Source of the DNA: Novosphingopyxis iocasae
GTDB taxonomy: Bacteria > Pseudomonadota > Alphaproteobacteria > Sphingomonadales > Sphingomonadaceae
DNA length: 64,000 bases
Assembly (NCBI RefSeq): GCF_014334095.1
Contig: NZ_CP060495.1
Coordinates: 1,821,001-1,885,000, forward strand
Direction: 5' to 3'
Shown: positions 4,605 to 11,745 of the stretch, piece after piece
How the letters are laid out: every line of letters begins with the position of its first letter
Numbering within the stretch: position 1 is the first letter of the stretch
Notes under the pieces: generated by a model
What the model saw: only the letters and a program-made list of their open reading frames with translations
Database searches by the model: none
What the model was told of the DNA's origin: nothing
Position numbers and translations under genes: made by a program

Positions 4605-5879
4605 TTAGGCAGCTACAGCGGCCGCGCGGTCCTTGCGCCGGTCCGCAAGCCAGGTCACCACCGCGGCGACGGTCAGGAGGGCGACCAACAAGGGCGAATG
4701 GTTCAAGAGCGCATCGATAAAGGCGGCCAGCGGATTTTCCGTCGCAAAAATACGCTCGATCATCCAGCAGATCGCGGCAAAGCCGGCGAAGGCCGCGCCG
4801 CCGAGCCGCAGCCAGTCATAATGGCGGGTGCGCGCAAAAATCATCAGCGCGGGCAGAAACGCCAAAACCACGCCCAGTTGCACGATCTCTATACCGATAT
4901 TGAACCCGAGGATGGAGACAATCTCCCGGTTCACGCCAAGCCCCAGATCTCCGACCAGAGTGGCAAAGGCAAGACCGTGGATAAGGCCGAAAACCACCGC
5001 GATCAGCGGCTCCCGCCCCGGAAAGATCGGTCGCCAAGCGTGGATCGCGGACACCAGAATAGAGATGGCAATGGCCACCTCCACCGGCTGCGCGGGCAGA
5101 TGCAATCCGAGCAGCGGCGCAGCGATCAGCGTCAGACTATGGCCGATGGTGAAGCTGGTGATGATCTTCGTCATGCCCCACAGGGCATCTTTCGGCGGAC
5201 GCGGGCCACCCCAGCGTTTGCGATTGGCGCTCAGCACAAGCGGCATCGGCAGAAAAAGCGCAAGAAGGAAGAGCAAGTGATCGTGCCCCTCCGCAATATG
5301 CTCCCCGCCGAGGCGCACCGCATTGGCAAAGCCGGTCATCGCGCTGGGATGACCGCGATCGACGGCAAGGCGCATCCGGTCGCTACGCACCGCGCCAATG
5401 ATCTCACGCTCATCGCCATACCGACCGTAGAGATCGCGCTTGGCGACGAAGAGCACAAAATGCGCCGGGTTCACGTCGACCACCGCGCGCCAATCGACCG
5501 TGAACTGGCGCACCGGTGCGCCGGCCGGCGGCACCAGCCGCGCAACCGCGTGCAAATCGGGCGGCCCGGCGATCTGCGCAAACTCGGTGTTCAGAAATTC
5601 GATTGTCCAGGCGCGCCCGTCCGGGCTTCGGATGGCGATATGCTGTTTCAGCCAGTCCTGCGCCTTGGCATAATTTTGCGGCGTCCATGCAACCGAATTG
5701 CCGCTCGCCGCGGCATAATCGCCCAGCGGCACTATGATATCGGCGCGCGCTTCGCTGGGTCCGAAGTCGATCTGCACCTCACTATTGGGTGTCACATGCG
5801 CCGCCGCCGCGCCCGAAAGCATCAGCGCGAACAGCGTCAGAAGCAACGCGATCATCCGTGCCACATGCCGCTCAGCCAT
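4605..5879 (-). CDS. HupE/UreJ_2 family membrane protein
   Basis: A 424-residue protein. The start at 5879 (MAERHVARMIALLLT) is preferred because it gives a clean signal peptide ending AAAAH and overlaps the upstream TPR gene by 8 bp. An extracytoplasmic beta-type domain covers roughly residues 30-190, followed by a multi-helix domain with HIAEGHDHLLFLLALFLP and a later IGHSLTL motif. These His-rich helices define the HupE/UreJ_2 group, related to nickel/cobalt permeases. The transported substrate is not established. It is the last gene of the DUF4331-TPR-HupE cluster and may be translationally coupled to the TPR gene. Confidence 0.8.
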   Translation of the reverse strand: MAERHVARMIALLLTLFALMLSGAAAAHVTPNSEVQIDFGPSEARADIIVPLGDYAAASGNSVAWTPQNYAKAQDWLKQHIAIRSPDGRAWTIEFLNTEFAQIAGPPDLHAVARLVPPAGAPVRQFTVDWRAVVDVNPAHFVLFVAKRDLYGRYGDEREIIGAVRSDRMRLAVDRGHPSAMTGFANAVRLGGEHIAEGHDHLLFLLALFLPMPLVLSANRKRWGGPRPPKDALWGMTKIITSFTIGHSLTLIAAPLLGLHLPAQPVEVAIAISILVSAIHAWRPIFPGREPLIAVVFGLIHGLAFATLVGDLGLGVNREIVSILGFNIGIEIVQLGVVLAFLPALMIFARTRHYDWLRLGGAAFAGFAAICWMIERIFATENPLAAFIDALLNHSPLLVALLTVAAVVTWLADRRKDRAAAVAA

Positions 5880-7284
5880 GGCCGAACCAGATATAGCTTT
5901 GTGCCGGATCGAATATCTTGGGATCGATTTTTTCCGCTTCCGCGCGCGCCGCATCGCTTGCCTTGCCATCACCCATCAGCGCTTCGGCTTCGGCGCGCAA
6001 GGCCCAGGCGCGCGCGCTGACCCAGCCGGAGCGATCAACCTGCTTTAGAAGGGCAAGCGCCTTTTCAGGTTGCCCGTTAGCCAATTCCGCCGATGCCAGC
6101 ATGATCGCCGTCTGGCCGTGCGGTCGGGCGGCAAAATCGGCCGCCGCGATGCGCAGCGCCTTGGTGGGATCCCCGAGGGCCAGCTCATGTTCCACGGCAT
6201 GACCGCGCGCCGCGCTGGGCAAGGCGGCCATGCGCCGGTCCCAGATGCCTTGCGCTTTCGCGATCCACGGCTTCGCCTCTGCAATCCGCCCATTGGCGCG
6301 CAGCAATGCGGCCAGAGCGTCCATTACCTGCGGATCGTTCGATTGGTTGGCCGCCTTGGTGTACAGAGCGACCGCACCGTTCACATCGCCTTGCAGCGCA
6401 AGCATCTGCGCCTGATAGGCCTCGGCCAGCCACCAGCCTTCGAAGGCGCGATTGGCAGCGGCGATATTCCTGGCCGCCATCGCCCAGTCTCCGCTCGCCA
6501 GACCGACATCGGCAAGTCGGAGGAAGAAAAAGGCTGCGAGATAGGGGCTCGGCGTTTTGGCGGTGGCACCGGCGCGGCGAATGTCCGCCTCAGCCTCATC
6601 AAAACGGCCATGCTTCAGCTCATAAGTGGACAGGCGCGTCAGGCTGCCGATATCCTCGCTCAGCCGCACCGATGCCCTGTAATAACGCAGCGCCTCGTCA
6701 TAATTGCCGCGGTAAAAGGCGATGTCCCCGCGCATGCCGAGCCATTCGGCGCGCCCGGCATCGTTCGGCTGGACCGCAAACCGATCCGCCTGATCGAGAT
6801 AGCGCTCGGCATCGTCCAGCCGGTGAACGGTTATGGCGTGGGCGGCAGCGGAGACAATCGGGCCAGCGCCCGTCGGCGCGTCCTGAAAGGCGCGCGCCAG
6901 TTCGCGGTCGATCGCTGCGAGATCGGTGTAATTGCCGGTCAGCGAGGCGCGTCGAGAAAGCGCACCGGTATACGCCTCGCGCAGCAGCCATTGGTCGGGG
7001 GCGTTTTCGAGACGCTGGCGCGTATTCGCTACAGTGGTTTCGGTGCGCGCAAGTTCGAGGGCGTAGCTGTCCGGGCCGACCACCCGATCGATGCCGATCC
7101 CTTCCGGCACCGGCGGCGCGTCTTCGCTGCCCCCGAACAGGCGGATAGCCAGCGCCACCAGCGTGGCAGCGGCAAGAAGAAGGATGACGAACTTCCACAG
7201 CCGGCTGGTCGAGCCGCCATGCGGGCGTTCAGGCCCGGTCGAAGGTGGAGGCGCCGTGACGTCCGTCACGCCGCCCCCTTCCAT
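5872..7284 (-). CDS. membrane-anchored tetratricopeptide repeat protein
   Basis: A 470-residue protein with a short cytoplasmic N-terminus, one transmembrane helix (KFVILLLAAATLVALAIRLF, residues ~31-50) and a long extracytoplasmic region of helical repeats. TPR-like signatures recur, such as GNYDEALRYYRASVRLSED and GDVNGAVALYTKAANQS. It probably serves as a scaffold in the envelope. A GTG at 7269 has a better ribosome binding site (GAAGGGGG) than the ATG at 7284, so the protein may be five residues shorter. It lies 18 bp after a DUF4331 gene and overlaps the HupE-like gene, so it is a likely partner of both. Confidence 0.8.
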   Translation of the reverse strand: MEGGGVTDVTAPPPSTGPERPHGGSTSRLWKFVILLLAAATLVALAIRLFGGSEDAPPVPEGIGIDRVVGPDSYALELARTETTVANTRQRLENAPDQWLLREAYTGALSRRASLTGNYTDLAAIDRELARAFQDAPTGAGPIVSAAAHAITVHRLDDAERYLDQADRFAVQPNDAGRAEWLGMRGDIAFYRGNYDEALRYYRASVRLSEDIGSLTRLSTYELKHGRFDEAEADIRRAGATAKTPSPYLAAFFFLRLADVGLASGDWAMAARNIAAANRAFEGWWLAEAYQAQMLALQGDVNGAVALYTKAANQSNDPQVMDALAALLRANGRIAEAKPWIAKAQGIWDRRMAALPSAARGHAVEHELALGDPTKALRIAAADFAARPHGQTAIMLASAELANGQPEKALALLKQVDRSGWVSARAWALRAEAEALMGDGKASDAARAEAEKIDPKIFDPAQSYIWFGHG

Positions 7285-7302: not shown

Positions 7303-8085
7303 TCACTTGGTGGTGGAGCAGGGCACAAAACCGGCGGTGATCAGATCGTCCCGCAAACCGGCGTGGATTTTCGTGAGTTCACTTGTCAGCTCGTTCACGA
7401 ACTGGCCAGCGACATCGTCCGCAGGATCGGCGTCGTTATACGGGATTTTCTGGTTCGTCCCGATCAGCGCCGTCGCTACCGCAGGCATGCCCATACGGTC
7501 GACACGGACATAGGACGTATCAGGCTGGCTCCGGAAGTTGAAGTTTGCCCCAGCGCTGCTGGCACGCGGCGGCGAACCCTGGGCTTGGCCCAGCCACGGA
7601 TAACCGCCAGCCATGCTGCGGTCTCCCTGCGCATAGGCGACATCGTTGCGCGGAACGTCCAGCGGCAGGTTCTGGAATGTGAGCGCTCCCTGCGTCGCGC
7701 CGCCGCTGGTCTTCGCGCCCAGCTTCAGAAGGATCACCGCTTCGGTGACGTTCGCGACCGGATCACCCACGCGGCGACCGTTCGGGAAGCCTGCTGCCGC
7801 GCCGTAGTTCAGCGTCAGCGTGTCTGGGATGATGAGATCGGCCACCGTGGTACCCGGCGCCACTTCCTGCGTGAGGCATTGCGACACATCGACGGTGCCG
7901 GTCGTGCTCGTGGGCGTGGGCGTGGGCGTCGGTGTGGGCGTCGGCGTTGGCGCAGGGGCCGGAGCCGGTGCCGGAGCCGCAGTTGGCGGCGGCGTAGTGT
8001 TGGCGTTATTGTCATCGCATGCCGTCAGCGTCAGAGCGATGGCAAGCGGGGTGGCGAGTGCGAGTGCACGCTTGGTGATAGTCAT
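7303..8085 (-). CDS. DUF4331-type lipoprotein (C-terminal-half-like), protein A
   Basis: A 260-residue protein with a lipobox (LALTLTAC, Cys ~23), then a Pro/Thr/Ala-rich linker with repeated TP, then a domain. Domain motifs in order are GFPNGRRVGDPV, a YPWL...QGSPPRASS stretch, VDRMGMPAV and a YND..P.DD segment. These match motifs of the C-terminal half of DUF4331 proteins, but the RMGMP motif comes after, not before, the NGRR motif. Its ATG overlaps the stop of the upstream gene by 1 nt and has a GGGAGGA ribosome binding site. Function unknown. Confidence 0.75.
   Translation of the reverse strand: MTITKRALALATPLAIALTLTACDDNNANTTPPPTAAPAPAPAPAPTPTPTPTPTPTPTSTTGTVDVSQCLTQEVAPGTTVADLIIPDTLTLNYGAAAGFPNGRRVGDPVANVTEAVILLKLGAKTSGGATQGALTFQNLPLDVPRNDVAYAQGDRSMAGGYPWLGQAQGSPPRASSAGANFNFRSQPDTSYVRVDRMGMPAVATALIGTNQKIPYNDADPADDVAGQFVNELTSELTKIHAGLRDDLITAGFVPCSTTK
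7908..7975. repeat. hexanucleotide-rich tract in the DUF4331 lipoprotein linker
   Basis: On the plus strand GTGGGC/GTCGGC-type six-base units are repeated around this position. On the coding strand they give an alternating Thr-Pro tract followed by Pro-Ala pairs. The six-base unit preserves the reading frame, so slippage would lengthen or shorten the surface linker and not switch the gene off. Confidence 0.6.
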
Positions 8086-8774
8086 CAGAGCTGTCCTCCC
8101 AGACGCAGGGTTTCGGCCCAGACATCGATCGGAACGGCCTGTCCGTTGGCGCTGTTCTGCGGAATACGGCTGCGCGGAATTTCGATCACGATGGCGGTGT
8201 CATTCGAATTTGCGAAGAAATCGCGCGTGCTCATGATTGAAAGGTTGCCGGTCTGCTTGGATTGGGTGAAGCCCTGCAGATCGAAAAAGAACGGATCGTC
8301 GAATAACCCAGCGCGGAAGCGCACACCGTCGATCGTGTTGTCGGCTTCTACCGGTCCGACCAGCGCGTTGCCGCCATTGGTGTTCGGAATACCGGTGATC
8401 TGCATGCCATAGGCGTTGGCATTGCTCGGATCTTGGCCGAACCGAATGCGGATCGGTATGTTGGTCGCGGTGCGCGGCGCCTGGTTCGAAATGTTGATCT
8501 TATAGAGAACATCGCGGTCATAGGTTGCACCCGCCGTCGTCGGCATCGGGCCGGCAAAGGTCAGGATCAGCACCAGCTTGTCATCGGTGTGGAAAGCGAA
8601 GACGTCGGCGATATCGGCCGCATAATCGGGCGTATTATCGACGGTGGGGTCTGTACGCTGCGGCGGATCGCGGTGATCCGCAGCAGGAGCGAACTGCTCC
8701 GGCAGCATGATGGCCAGCGGCACGGCGAGCGCCATGGCACCCCCCGCGATCGCCAGCTTGGCAAAACGATTCAT
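8085..8774 (-). CDS. DUF4331-type secreted protein (N-terminal-half-like), protein B
   Basis: A 229-residue protein. The start at 8774 (MNRFAKLAIAGG) is preferred because an AGGAGG-type site lies just upstream and it yields a clear signal peptide. The mature part starts with ADHRDPP and contains NTPDYAADIADVFAF, a GVRFRAGLFDDPFFFDL segment and VIEIPRSRIPQ...VDVWAETLR-like segments. These are the hallmarks of the first half of DUF4331 domains. The gene ends just before the second half would begin, and the next gene supplies that half. It lacks a lipobox, so it is probably periplasmic or secreted. Function unknown. Confidence 0.75.
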   Translation of the reverse strand: MNRFAKLAIAGGAMALAVPLAIMLPEQFAPAADHRDPPQRTDPTVDNTPDYAADIADVFAFHTDDKLVLILTFAGPMPTTAGATYDRDVLYKINISNQAPRTATNIPIRIRFGQDPSNANAYGMQITGIPNTNGGNALVGPVEADNTIDGVRFRAGLFDDPFFFDLQGFTQSKQTGNLSIMSTRDFFANSNDTAIVIEIPRSRIPQNSANGQAVPIDVWAETLRLGGQL

Positions 8775-8980: not shown

Positions 8981-9694
8981 CTATTTCTTGGCGCAAAGCG
9001 CATAGCCCGCCGCCGTAAGATCGTCTGCGAAGGCGTCGGTCAGGGCGCCCAGTTCGTCTTCGATATTGCCGACAAAGTCGCCGTCGACATCATCGCCGGG
9101 GCCTGCGTCATTATAATCGGGCTTCTTCTCGAACGGCACGACCACGGTGGACACCAGCGGCATGCCCATGCGGTCCACCCTGTCATATTGGTCATCGTCC
9201 TCATCGACGAAATTGAAGTTTCCGCCTACAGAACTTGCCCGCGGCGGACTGCCCTGCGCGGGGGCCAGATAGGGGAAGCCGGACGGGAAGGCGACATCGT
9301 TGGAAGCTGGGTTCAACGGAATATCGGCGAACCGACGCGCACCTTCCTTCGAGAGATCGAGGAAGATGTAAGCCAGGAAGATATCACCCACCTGATCGGT
9401 AAGCTTGCGGCCATTGGGGAAGCCGGAGGGGCGCGAATAATCGAGCGTCAGCGTGTCGGGGAAGATTGTCTGCCCAACGGTGCGGCCCGCCGGGACCGTA
9501 TCGCTTTCCGGAATCCGCTGCGTCAGGCAGTCGCGCACCGAATAGCTAACCCCGCTCGGCGCGGGCGGAGGCGGGGGAACCGGAATGTTCGAGAAATCCT
9601 CCTCGGTATCGACGCCGTCATTGCTATTCCCGCAGGCAGGAAGCGCCAACAGCATGGAAACGGCCGCAACGGCGGCAATGGTACGAACGGTCAT
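8981..9694 (-). CDS. DUF4331-type lipoprotein, paralogue C
   Basis: A 237-residue paralogue of protein A with the same order of motifs: lipobox LLALPAC, a short proline run, [60 protein letters not shown] and a [14 protein letters not shown] segment. A Cys-containing C-terminus is shared with A. It is separated from gene B by about 200 bp of AT-richer sequence and has its own weak ribosome binding site, so it may be transcribed with or separately from the rest. Presumably an outer-membrane or periplasmic lipoprotein; function unknown. Confidence 0.7.
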
Positions 9695-9801
9695 CAGGCA
9701 AAATTCCCCGCTACTGGCCTTGGACGGGCATGCTAGCAGAGGAACCGAGCGCTATGGTAGCCCGTAAAACCAGCGCAGACATGATCATGAAGGAGAGAGC
9801 G

Positions 9802-11745
9802 ATGGCGGACGGCAAGCAGGAAGAGGCGCTGGTGGCGCGCCCGCGCGGCGGCAAGACGAATTGCACCGCGGAGGAATATGACCGTCTGTACGAACGCTCG
9901 CTGGCCGATCCCGACACCTTTTGGGGCAAGCAGGCCGAACGGGTGGACTGGATCGAGGAGCCGTCCACCATCTGCAACAGCAGCTTCGATCCGGTCGACA
10001 TCAAATGGTATGAGGGCGGCAAGCTCAACCTCTGTCACAATTGCGTCGATCGCCATGTCGAAGACGGCAAGGGCGATGTCACCGCGCTGATCTGGGAAGC
10101 CGATGAGCCGGGCGACGTGCGCCGCCTCAGCTACAAAGAACTGCACCAAGAGGTGCAGCGCTTCGCCAATGTGCTGAAAGACATGGGGGTTGCGAAGGGC
10201 GACCGCGTGACCTTGTACATGCCGATGATCCTGGAAGGCGCGGTCGCGATGCTCGCCTGCGCGCGGATCGGCGCGGTGCATTCGGTCGTGTTCGGCGGCT
10301 TCAGTCCGGATGCGCTTGCCGGACGGATCGAGGATTGCGACAGCCGCTTCCTGATCACCGCCGATGCAGGCGTGCGGGCCTCCAAGACGGTGCCGCTCAA
10401 GAAAAACGCCGATGCTGCGCTGGGCAAACTGTCCTTCGAGGTAAAGACGCTCGTGATCCGCCACCGCGGCGAGGATGTGGCCATGAAGGAAGGCCGCGAC
10501 ATCTGGTATGACGAGGCGGCGAAGGACGTCTCGCCAAATTGCCCGTGCGAGGAGATGGACGCGGAAGACCCGCTGTTCATCCTTTACACCTCCGGCTCCA
10601 CCGGAAAGCCCAAGGGCGTGCTGCACACGACGGGCGGCTATGCCGTCTGGACCGCGACGACCTTCCATTATGTGTTCGATTATCAGCCCGGCGATATCTA
10701 CTGGTGCACCGCCGATATCGGCTGGGTGACCGGGCACAGCTACATCGTCTACGGCCCGCTACAAAATGCCGCCACCAGCCTGATGTTCGAAGGCGTGCCC
10801 AATTATCCGGACGTCGACCGCTTCTGGGACATGGTGGAACGGCACAAGGTCAACATCTTCTACACCGCCCCCACCGCGATCCGCGCGCTGATGCGCGAGG
10901 GCAGCGATCCGGTGACACGGCATAATCTCTCCTCGCTCAAACTGCTCGGCACGGTGGGCGAACCGATCAATCCGGAGGCATGGCGCTGGTACCACGATAT
11001 CGTCGGCGGTGGCGATGCGCCGATCGTCGACACCTGGTGGCAGACCGAAACCGGCGGCGTCATGATCACCACCCTACCCCATGCACATGACATGAAGCCG
11101 GGCAGTGCGGGCAAGCCGTTTTTCGGCATCGAGCCGCAGCTGCTCGACGCGGACGGCAATCTGCTGGAGGGCGCGAACGAGGGCAATCTCGCCATCGCGC
11201 GCAGCTGGCCGGGGCAGATGCGAACCGTCTATGGCGATCATGAGCGGTTCGTGCAGACCTATTTCAGCACGTATAAAGGCAAATATTTCACCGGCGACGG
11301 CTGCCGCCGCGACGGCGCGGGATACTACACAATCACTGGCCGCGTGGACGATGTGATCAACGTCTCCGGCCATCGCATGGGTACAGCCGAAGTGGAAAGC
11401 GCGCTTGTGCTCCACCCCAAGGTCGCCGAGGCCGCGGTGGTGGGCTATCCACACGACATCAAGGGCCAGGGCATCTACTGCTATGTCACGCTCAACAGCG
11501 GCGTGGAGCCTTCGGAGGAGCTGGAGGCGGAGCTGAAAAACCATGTCCGCAGCGAGATCGGCCCGATCGCCACGCCCGACCATCTGCACTTCACCCCGGC
11601 ATTGCCCAAGACACGCTCCGGCAAGATCATGCGCCGCATCCTGCGCAAGATTGCCGAGAACGACTATGGCGCGCTGGGCGACACCTCCACTCTCGCCGAT
11701 CCGGACGTGGTCGAAGGGCTGATCGAGGGCAGAAAAAACCGGTGA
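9802..11745 (+). CDS. acs: acetyl-CoA synthetase (acetate-CoA ligase)
   Basis: A 647-residue AMP-forming ligase that activates acetate to acetyl-CoA in the cytoplasm. The start at 9802 (MADGKQEE) follows an AAGGAGAG ribosome binding site; longer in-frame starts exist but lack one. Motifs: ATP/AMP-binding [23 protein letters not shown] in the adenylate pocket, and the C-terminal catalytic lysine in TRSGKIMRR, commonly acetylated for control. Length matches the family. It is divergent from the DUF4331 cluster. Confidence 0.97.

Follow-up and report, generated by a model that had tools for sequence, protein, structure and literature searches.

The window, a 64,000-nucleotide stretch of the Novosphingopyxis iocasae genome (NZ_CP060495.1, positions 1,821,001 to 1,885,000), contains a cluster of genes that are all encoded on the minus strand and transcribed in the order C, B, A, TPR, and HupE_UreJ_2 (Table 1). 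The stop codon of B overlaps the start codon of A in the sequence TGATG. The lipobox of A is LTAC with the lipidated Cys23, and B has a signal peptide of the ordinary type, cleaved between APA and ADH by the -3/-1 rule. A first-pass annotation of this DNA had claimed the overlap, a lipoprotein A and a secreted B, together with the motifs ADHRDPP, DPFFFDL, and IEIPRSRI in B and second-half motifs in A, and we found each of them where it had been placed. The PF13795 assignment of the HupE_UreJ_2 protein passes at 136.4 bits against a Pfam cut-off of 24.5 bits. Two A-type lipoproteins (A and C) and a single B are encoded at the locus, and C is also present in the sister Novosphingopyxis genome (L024/L132). 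Two A-type chains for one B suggest alternative partners or a three-chain unit. At 9694-9802 of the window, an acetyl-CoA synthetase-like gene (family judged by eye) runs divergently from the operon; its ORF opens at 9730 and its likely start is at about 9802. Promoter and terminator scans at the locus gave nothing beyond chance level.

Table 1. Genes and protein features of the DUF4331 locus; positions are those of the window.
Feature	Position	Strand	Description
Gene C	8981..9694	-	Paralogue of A, 39% identity, also permuted, without its own B
Gene B	8085..8774	-	Secreted N-terminal half of DUF4331 (PF14224 about 10-237)
Predicted mature N-terminus of B, Ala-Asp-His	8673..8681	-	Loose -3/-1 rule
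Gene A	7303..8085	-	Lipoprotein, circularly permuted C-terminal half of DUF4331
Lipobox Cys23 of A	8017..8019	-	Invariant, 40/40 A-type proteins
Segment N of A (FPNGRR ... FPYL-like; profile about 360-421)	7564..7890	-	First in A, last in one-chain proteins
Cys70 of A (terminal Cys pair, N-terminal side)	7876..7878	-	Invariant in 40/40
Segment R of A (VDRMGMP ...; profile about 244-316)	7312..7548	-	Last in A, precedes N in one-chain proteins
Cys256 of A (terminal Cys pair, C-terminal side)	7318..7320	-	Invariant in 40/40
TPR protein	5872..7284	-	Pfam TPR matches; one N-terminal membrane segment by eye
HupE_UreJ_2 (PF13795) membrane protein	4605..5879	-	Start at 5879 likely; ORF opens at 5972

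We compared the three proteins with the Pfam profile PF14224 (DUF4331), which has 421 positions and a gathering cut-off of 27 bits. The results showed that the whole-protein scores of A (38.6 bits, E 1e-9), B (52.9 bits, E 5e-14), and C (51.8 bits, E 1e-13) were all above this cut-off. The matched stretches of B were colinear with the profile, 10-94 followed by 161-237, and those of A (359-390, then 244-292) and C (364-420, then 248-301) were swapped. This profile comparison, proposed in the first-pass annotation, gave complementary coverage by B and A with permuted stretches in A and C, and bore out two of its claims: that B is the first half of DUF4331 and ends where the second half begins (PF14224 10-237), and that the second-half segments of A are reversed. 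The standard DUF4331 architecture, with 421 positions in order on one chain, was found in none of A, B, and C, and the three are classed here by sequence as homologous DUF4331 halves, not as standard members. The weakest stretch is 359-390 of A (E 0.017), which is weak if taken alone; its assignment holds because A is 39% identical to C and because one profile fits 40 A-type proteins of the same bacterial family (A and C included), covering nearly the whole of their domain. Using a profile made from 7 one-chain proteins of this family, we detected two stretches in 39 of the 40 A-type proteins, swapped in all 39; the 40th protein (L071) was absent from the match list. A PF14224 search of the source genome (3.19 Mb, one contig) found no other DUF4331 genes at E up to 1. 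Together with the gene order described below, these profile matches put both the split and the reordering of the segments on firm ground.

Direct alignment to colinear relatives gave the position of the break. By blastp, residues 183-260 of the window A aligned with residues 139-216 of the L201 protein at 58% identity, and residues 57-137 aligned with residues 210-290 at 55%. The break in A maps to L201 residues 210-216, where the reference chain is continuous, and the old ends of the C-terminal half are joined in A by about residues 166-182. Both A and C also aligned with L203, L208, L256, and L264 in two blocks each, always swapped, and the identity was about 39-58% in both blocks against the five colinear relatives. 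The colinear split A of L203 matched PF14224 247-421 as a single stretch (E 2e-19). A therefore shows the features of a circular permutation, namely swapped homologous blocks, new ends inside a continuous reference chain, and a linker at the old ends.

PF14224 matched in 44 of 298 sampled genomes of the same bacterial family, and 7 of the 44 carried a full-length colinear one-chain protein. The loci were annotated with custom profiles, which gave 38 split loci (including that of the window). These encode 38 B proteins and, with two C genes included, 40 A-type proteins; one match (L074/G171) was left without a locus assignment. The first-pass annotation had made its reading depend on co-occurrence of the two halves across genomes, and at each of the 38 split loci with an A in this family, B directly precedes A. 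At L072 (G249) and L093, a genome with a full-length DUF4331 gene also keeps a truncated B; the 6 kb fetched there contain no A, and the pair seems to be decaying. PF14224 matches were found in 9 of 147 genomes of the order, 8 of 289 of the class, and 22 of 398 of the phylum of the source genome (the source genome counted in each), in 48 of 188 genomes of Myxococcota (the phylum of the L201 genome), and in 25 of 274 genomes of the class of G844 (by inference Gammaproteobacteria).

Scanning of named contigs with the A alignment gave 137 confirmed matches, the best 80 of which fell in 78 loci. Among those best 80 of 137 matches, most loci were permuted B-A pairs of Sphingomonadales and Caulobacteraceae, and the permuted loci of Caulobacteraceae (L186, L195, L196, L198, and L199) all came from metagenome-assembled genomes. 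Colinear B-A lipoprotein pairs were found at L201, L203, L204, L205, L207, L208, and L209, titled in this order Sandaracinaceae, a "bacterium", a "proteobacterium", Granulosicoccaceae (twice), Nannocystaceae, and Planctomycetota. A second, colinear B-A operon was found in two Phenylobacterium loci, L195 and L196. In these bins the permuted and the colinear B-A-TPR operons lie side by side and are convergent (L195:3026-9246 and L196:5240-10829). The 39 newly fetched loci contributed 18 scored pairs (all colinear, many already counted), 2 one-chain proteins, and 19 loci without a profile-passing frame pair. After collapsing copies whose A proteins agree in all of their last 100 residues, and after excluding five A-like frames with no B immediately ahead of them (the C genes of L001 and L012, and L120, L213, and L319), we obtained 112 distinct scored B-A pairs, 85 permuted and 27 split but colinear. 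Judged by title or group code, all permuted pairs belonged to Sphingomonadales or to metagenome-assembled Caulobacteraceae, and the colinear pairs were mostly from Myxococcota.

Counting the frames with both segments in all fetched loci, we found 87 with N then R (the 85 paired with B and two C genes), 58 with R then N (including one-chain proteins whose B part was below the threshold), 32 with B-R-N, and none with B-N-R, the single-chain permuted form. Among the fetched loci, therefore, only split forms are permuted. None of these loci had a duplicated intermediate (N-R-N or R-N-R), and no permuted A had a second N or R segment; the sole extra segment matches came from L195/L196, where an insert interrupts an R segment. 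The one-chain and colinear split forms were found in Myxococcota, Gammaproteobacteria, other Alphaproteobacteria, and one planctomycete bin, and both full-length and compact one-chain DUF4331 forms exist. One compact form of 351 aa (L097, G332) joins B and A in one chain without the Cys pair, and is a good natural stand-in for modelling the B-A complex. Novosphingobium lentum has two consecutive B-A pairs in the order B-A-TPR-B-A-HupE (L172:1944-7973). Adjoining A and B relatives (H1-H4) were also seen on large plasmids of Croceicoccus marinus, NZ_CP019603.1 and NZ_CP060053.1, and on NZ_CP019603.1 both are annotated as "DUF4331 family protein".

Three Cys residues were invariant in the first set of 40 A-type proteins: that of the lipobox, one immediately ahead of segment N, and one where segment R ends. 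A Cys was found near each end of the domain in 85/85 permuted A of the pairs. In colinear A, the two Cys are adjacent between R and N as CX4-18C in 25/27 proteins, the two without it being L209 and L299, so the Cys pair is not essential in the colinear form. Only 2/59 one-chain proteins had two Cys between R and N, and 12/59 had at least one. Since permuted A keeps a Cys at both ends and colinear A has the CX4-18C loop, the new termini lie inside a pre-existing loop, which is probably closed by a disulfide. For a break placed anywhere in the domain (about 170 residues), we estimated the chance of landing in a loop of 4-18 residues at roughly 2-10%; this estimate covers a single event, so the evidence from it is modest.

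The AlphaFold2 model of mature B was mostly beta, with pLDDT 89 and pTM 0.84. Permuted A modelled alone gave pLDDT 73 and pTM 0.66, with residues 86-125 mostly below 50. The two ends of the A model were among its best-predicted parts (block means of 88-89 and 93-95), and a short strand or bridge is present at each of them. In the Foldseek search, the A model matched nothing in PDB with E up to 10, and none of the 3 chains that were re-aligned to it reached a Z of 2. The fold matches of the B model were weak, with a best Foldseek E of 0.01 and a best Z of 6.1, which falls below the best Z of 7-8 typical of models without a clear match. The CBM9 module at rank 8 among these matches (E 0.21) is not claimed. 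The sequence search of PDB gave for A only low-scoring matches to its Pro/Ala-rich linker part and for B one match at E 0.013; NCBIfam gave no match for B and C, and for A only low-complexity matches below the cut-off.

The distance from the stop of B to the lipobox Cys of A had a median of 72 bp in the permuted pairs (78 of 85 measured) and 73 bp in the colinear pairs (22 of 27), being measured only where a lipobox was found. Because the stop of B thus sits about one signal peptide before this Cys, B and A are likely translationally coupled. The two halves co-occur as a pair, and in other genomes they are fused as one chain. Since the same halves make up one chain elsewhere and the pair is conserved and closely spaced, B and A likely reassemble as a two-chain DUF4331 unit at the membrane. 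We consider it probable that they are two halves of one membrane-tethered DUF4331 unit, in which A is circularly permuted and opened in the Cys loop. B and A would be made as separate exported chains from the overlapping genes. In A, the old ends of the C-terminal half are connected by a short linker and the chain is open inside the small two-Cys loop, and a putative Cys70-Cys256 disulfide would tie the new ends, so that the fold would be retained despite the changed chain order. The lipid-anchored A would bind B non-covalently and rebuild the DUF4331 unit at a cell-envelope membrane, where it would sit beside the TPR protein and the HupE/UreJ-type permease. C, the second A-type chain, may share B or compete for it.

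The neighbouring genes were surveyed at the 64 permuted loci with at least 3.5 kb fetched after A and at the 7 colinear loci with enough sequence. A TPR relative was found in the fetched stretch at 61/64 permuted and 6/7 colinear loci, and a HupE_UreJ_2 relative at 38/64 and 1/7. At L096, the genes for a TPR protein, a one-chain DUF4331 protein, and a HupE_UreJ_2 protein lie in a row. The loose -3/-1 rule allows a conserved His at mature position 3 in 81/85 permuted B, 27/27 colinear B, and 58/62 placed one-chain proteins (3 further one-chain proteins were not placed in this count). Other mature positions for the His were allowed less often, except position 1 in 57/62 one-chain proteins; in B, position 1 is excluded because Asp precedes the His. 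In most sequences the rule permits a mature N-terminus of A-D-H or S-S-H, and cleavage elsewhere is possible. An N-terminal X-X-His is also a feature of copper/nickel ATCUN sites (a term used in PMC7701195). The putative N-terminal X-X-His of B together with the HupE/UreJ neighbour hints, at low confidence, at copper or nickel handling. The B-A unit most likely works with the TPR protein and often with a HupE/UreJ-type permease, perhaps in this role.

As an addition to the two-half unit, B-A, the TPR protein, and HupE_UreJ_2 could make up a system for copper or nickel capture and delivery, in which the X-X-His of B hands the metal to the permease. The His at predicted mature position 3 and the HupE/UreJ neighbours, both found with the split and the one-chain form, are consistent with it. 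However, the cleavage site comes from the -3/-1 rule only, and in one-chain proteins the rule allows the His at position 1 almost as often; HupE_UreJ_2 was not seen at 26/64 permuted loci, and the invariant Asp residues could equally mean calcium or a structural role. We therefore hold this addition to be doubtful.

Alternatively, B and A may share DUF4331 ancestry and yet be independent envelope proteins, with A and C folding and acting alone. The high confidence of the model of B alone indicates that B may fold by itself, and C is without its own B. Covariation also bears on this question. One of the first runs used the 74 permuted pairs (of 85) whose fetched stretch includes a TPR gene. Of its top 100 couplings, 43 linked A to B, compared with 2 and 1 between A and the two halves of the TPR protein, and 14 and 4 between B and these halves. 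After outliers were removed (71 rows) and rare residues were masked, the counts were 45 for A-B, 35 and 32 for A-TPR, and 39 and 30 for B-TPR, and shuffled pairing gave 8-14. Because the TPR controls rose to near the A-B value, most of the covariation signal between A and B is shared ancestry, and the strong A-B signal of the first runs counts neither for nor against a two-half unit; a signal only slightly above that with the TPR protein fits independent proteins. On the other side, B and A are adjacent and in the same order in 38/38 split loci of the family with an A and in 112 pairs over several phyla, and A alone is poorly predicted, as expected if a partner is needed, although this is a weak argument. 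Independent action of the two proteins is unlikely on balance.

For the two-half unit, the B tree offers an order of events. It contained 49 permuted rows (thinned from 85), 27 colinear rows, and 18 one-chain rows, which were sparsely filled and included only those with a well-scoring B part; the permutation trait itself is not in B. The results showed that the permuted rows were one side of one branch (SH-aLRT 96; quick search, no bootstrap, arbitrary root), and that the colinear rows required 3 changes and the one-chain rows 2. In the simplest reading, one chain would have given rise to the colinear split, which was followed by one permutation toward Sphingomonadales and Caulobacteraceae; since the root of the tree is arbitrary, the direction from one chain to split comes from parsimony on the distribution of the forms. 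A single change fits either direction on an unrooted tree, so the permuted form could also be the older one and the colinear and one-chain forms derived, but permuted pairs were found only in Sphingomonadales and Caulobacteraceae and the other forms in several phyla of the sampled genomes, and we regard this direction as very improbable. That the swapped order is an artefact of repeats, low complexity, assembly error, or a frameshift has a negligible probability, even though A matches over short stretches, one of them weak by itself (E 0.017), because the order is conserved across genomes (identical in 85 distinct pairs from many assemblies), both blocks keep about 39-58% identity to the five colinear relatives, and the frames are intact, each permuted A having a single N and a single R segment.

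A wider reading joins these points: the natural series is complete (one chain, two colinear chains, and two chains of which one is permuted), the prior disulfide loop allowed the cut, the lipid anchor of the permuted unit moved sides, and the whole is a membrane-tethered copper/nickel-binding module for a HupE/UreJ-type permease. We put it forward tentatively, as possible in its entirety. According to PMC3320104, there are two published models of permutation, by duplication and by fission/fusion, and both could apply to A.

The one-chain DUF4331 proteins (for example L029/G011, 543 aa) resemble B-A in that both halves are homologous and an X-X-His follows the predicted signal peptide, and at L096 they also share the TPR and HupE_UreJ_2 neighbours. 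Unlike B-A, they are a single colinear chain that is longer than both mature halves together, and, unlike permuted A, 57/59 of them have no Cys pair between R and N. The split colinear pairs (L203, L201, L205, L208, and the Myxococcota loci) are like the pair of the window in having a B and an A lipoprotein, in gene order and spacing, in the TPR relative (6/7 loci), and in the Cys pair CX4-18C (25/27). Their A differs from that of the window in its one-chain order R-N and in its lipid anchor, which precedes R rather than N. Circular permutation is known to occur naturally in saposin/swaposin, in transhydrogenases (fission and fusion), and in DNA methyltransferases, for which intermediates are documented (PMC3320104). 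In these proteins, as in A, the two segments of a homologous domain are swapped. In contrast to them, what is permuted here is only a half of a domain that was already split, a colinear split stage still exists, the break is inside a Cys-Cys loop, and no partly duplicated intermediate was found.

In the library searched, no paper named DUF4331, PF14224, PF13795, or HupE UreJ, and among the papers listed on circular permutation with gene fission or disulfides, as judged from their listings, nothing was recognised as this case. Circular permutation and gene fission are each already known; what is unusual here is that a half within a split domain is permuted, that the colinear stage persists, and that the break falls in the Cys loop. 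Permuted halves would explain the partial and out-of-order DUF4331 profile matches in Sphingomonadales. The one-chain, split-colinear, and split-permuted forms of one domain coexist in related operons, so that the steps of the rearrangement may be traced. A half permuted after fission is a stage different from the permutation intermediates documented in some families such as DNA methyltransferases (PMC3320104), and a specific model, in which fission was followed by the disulfide loop and then by permutation, is thereby made testable. The operon partners and the N-terminal X-X-His may provide a handle on DUF4331, a widespread family of unknown function.
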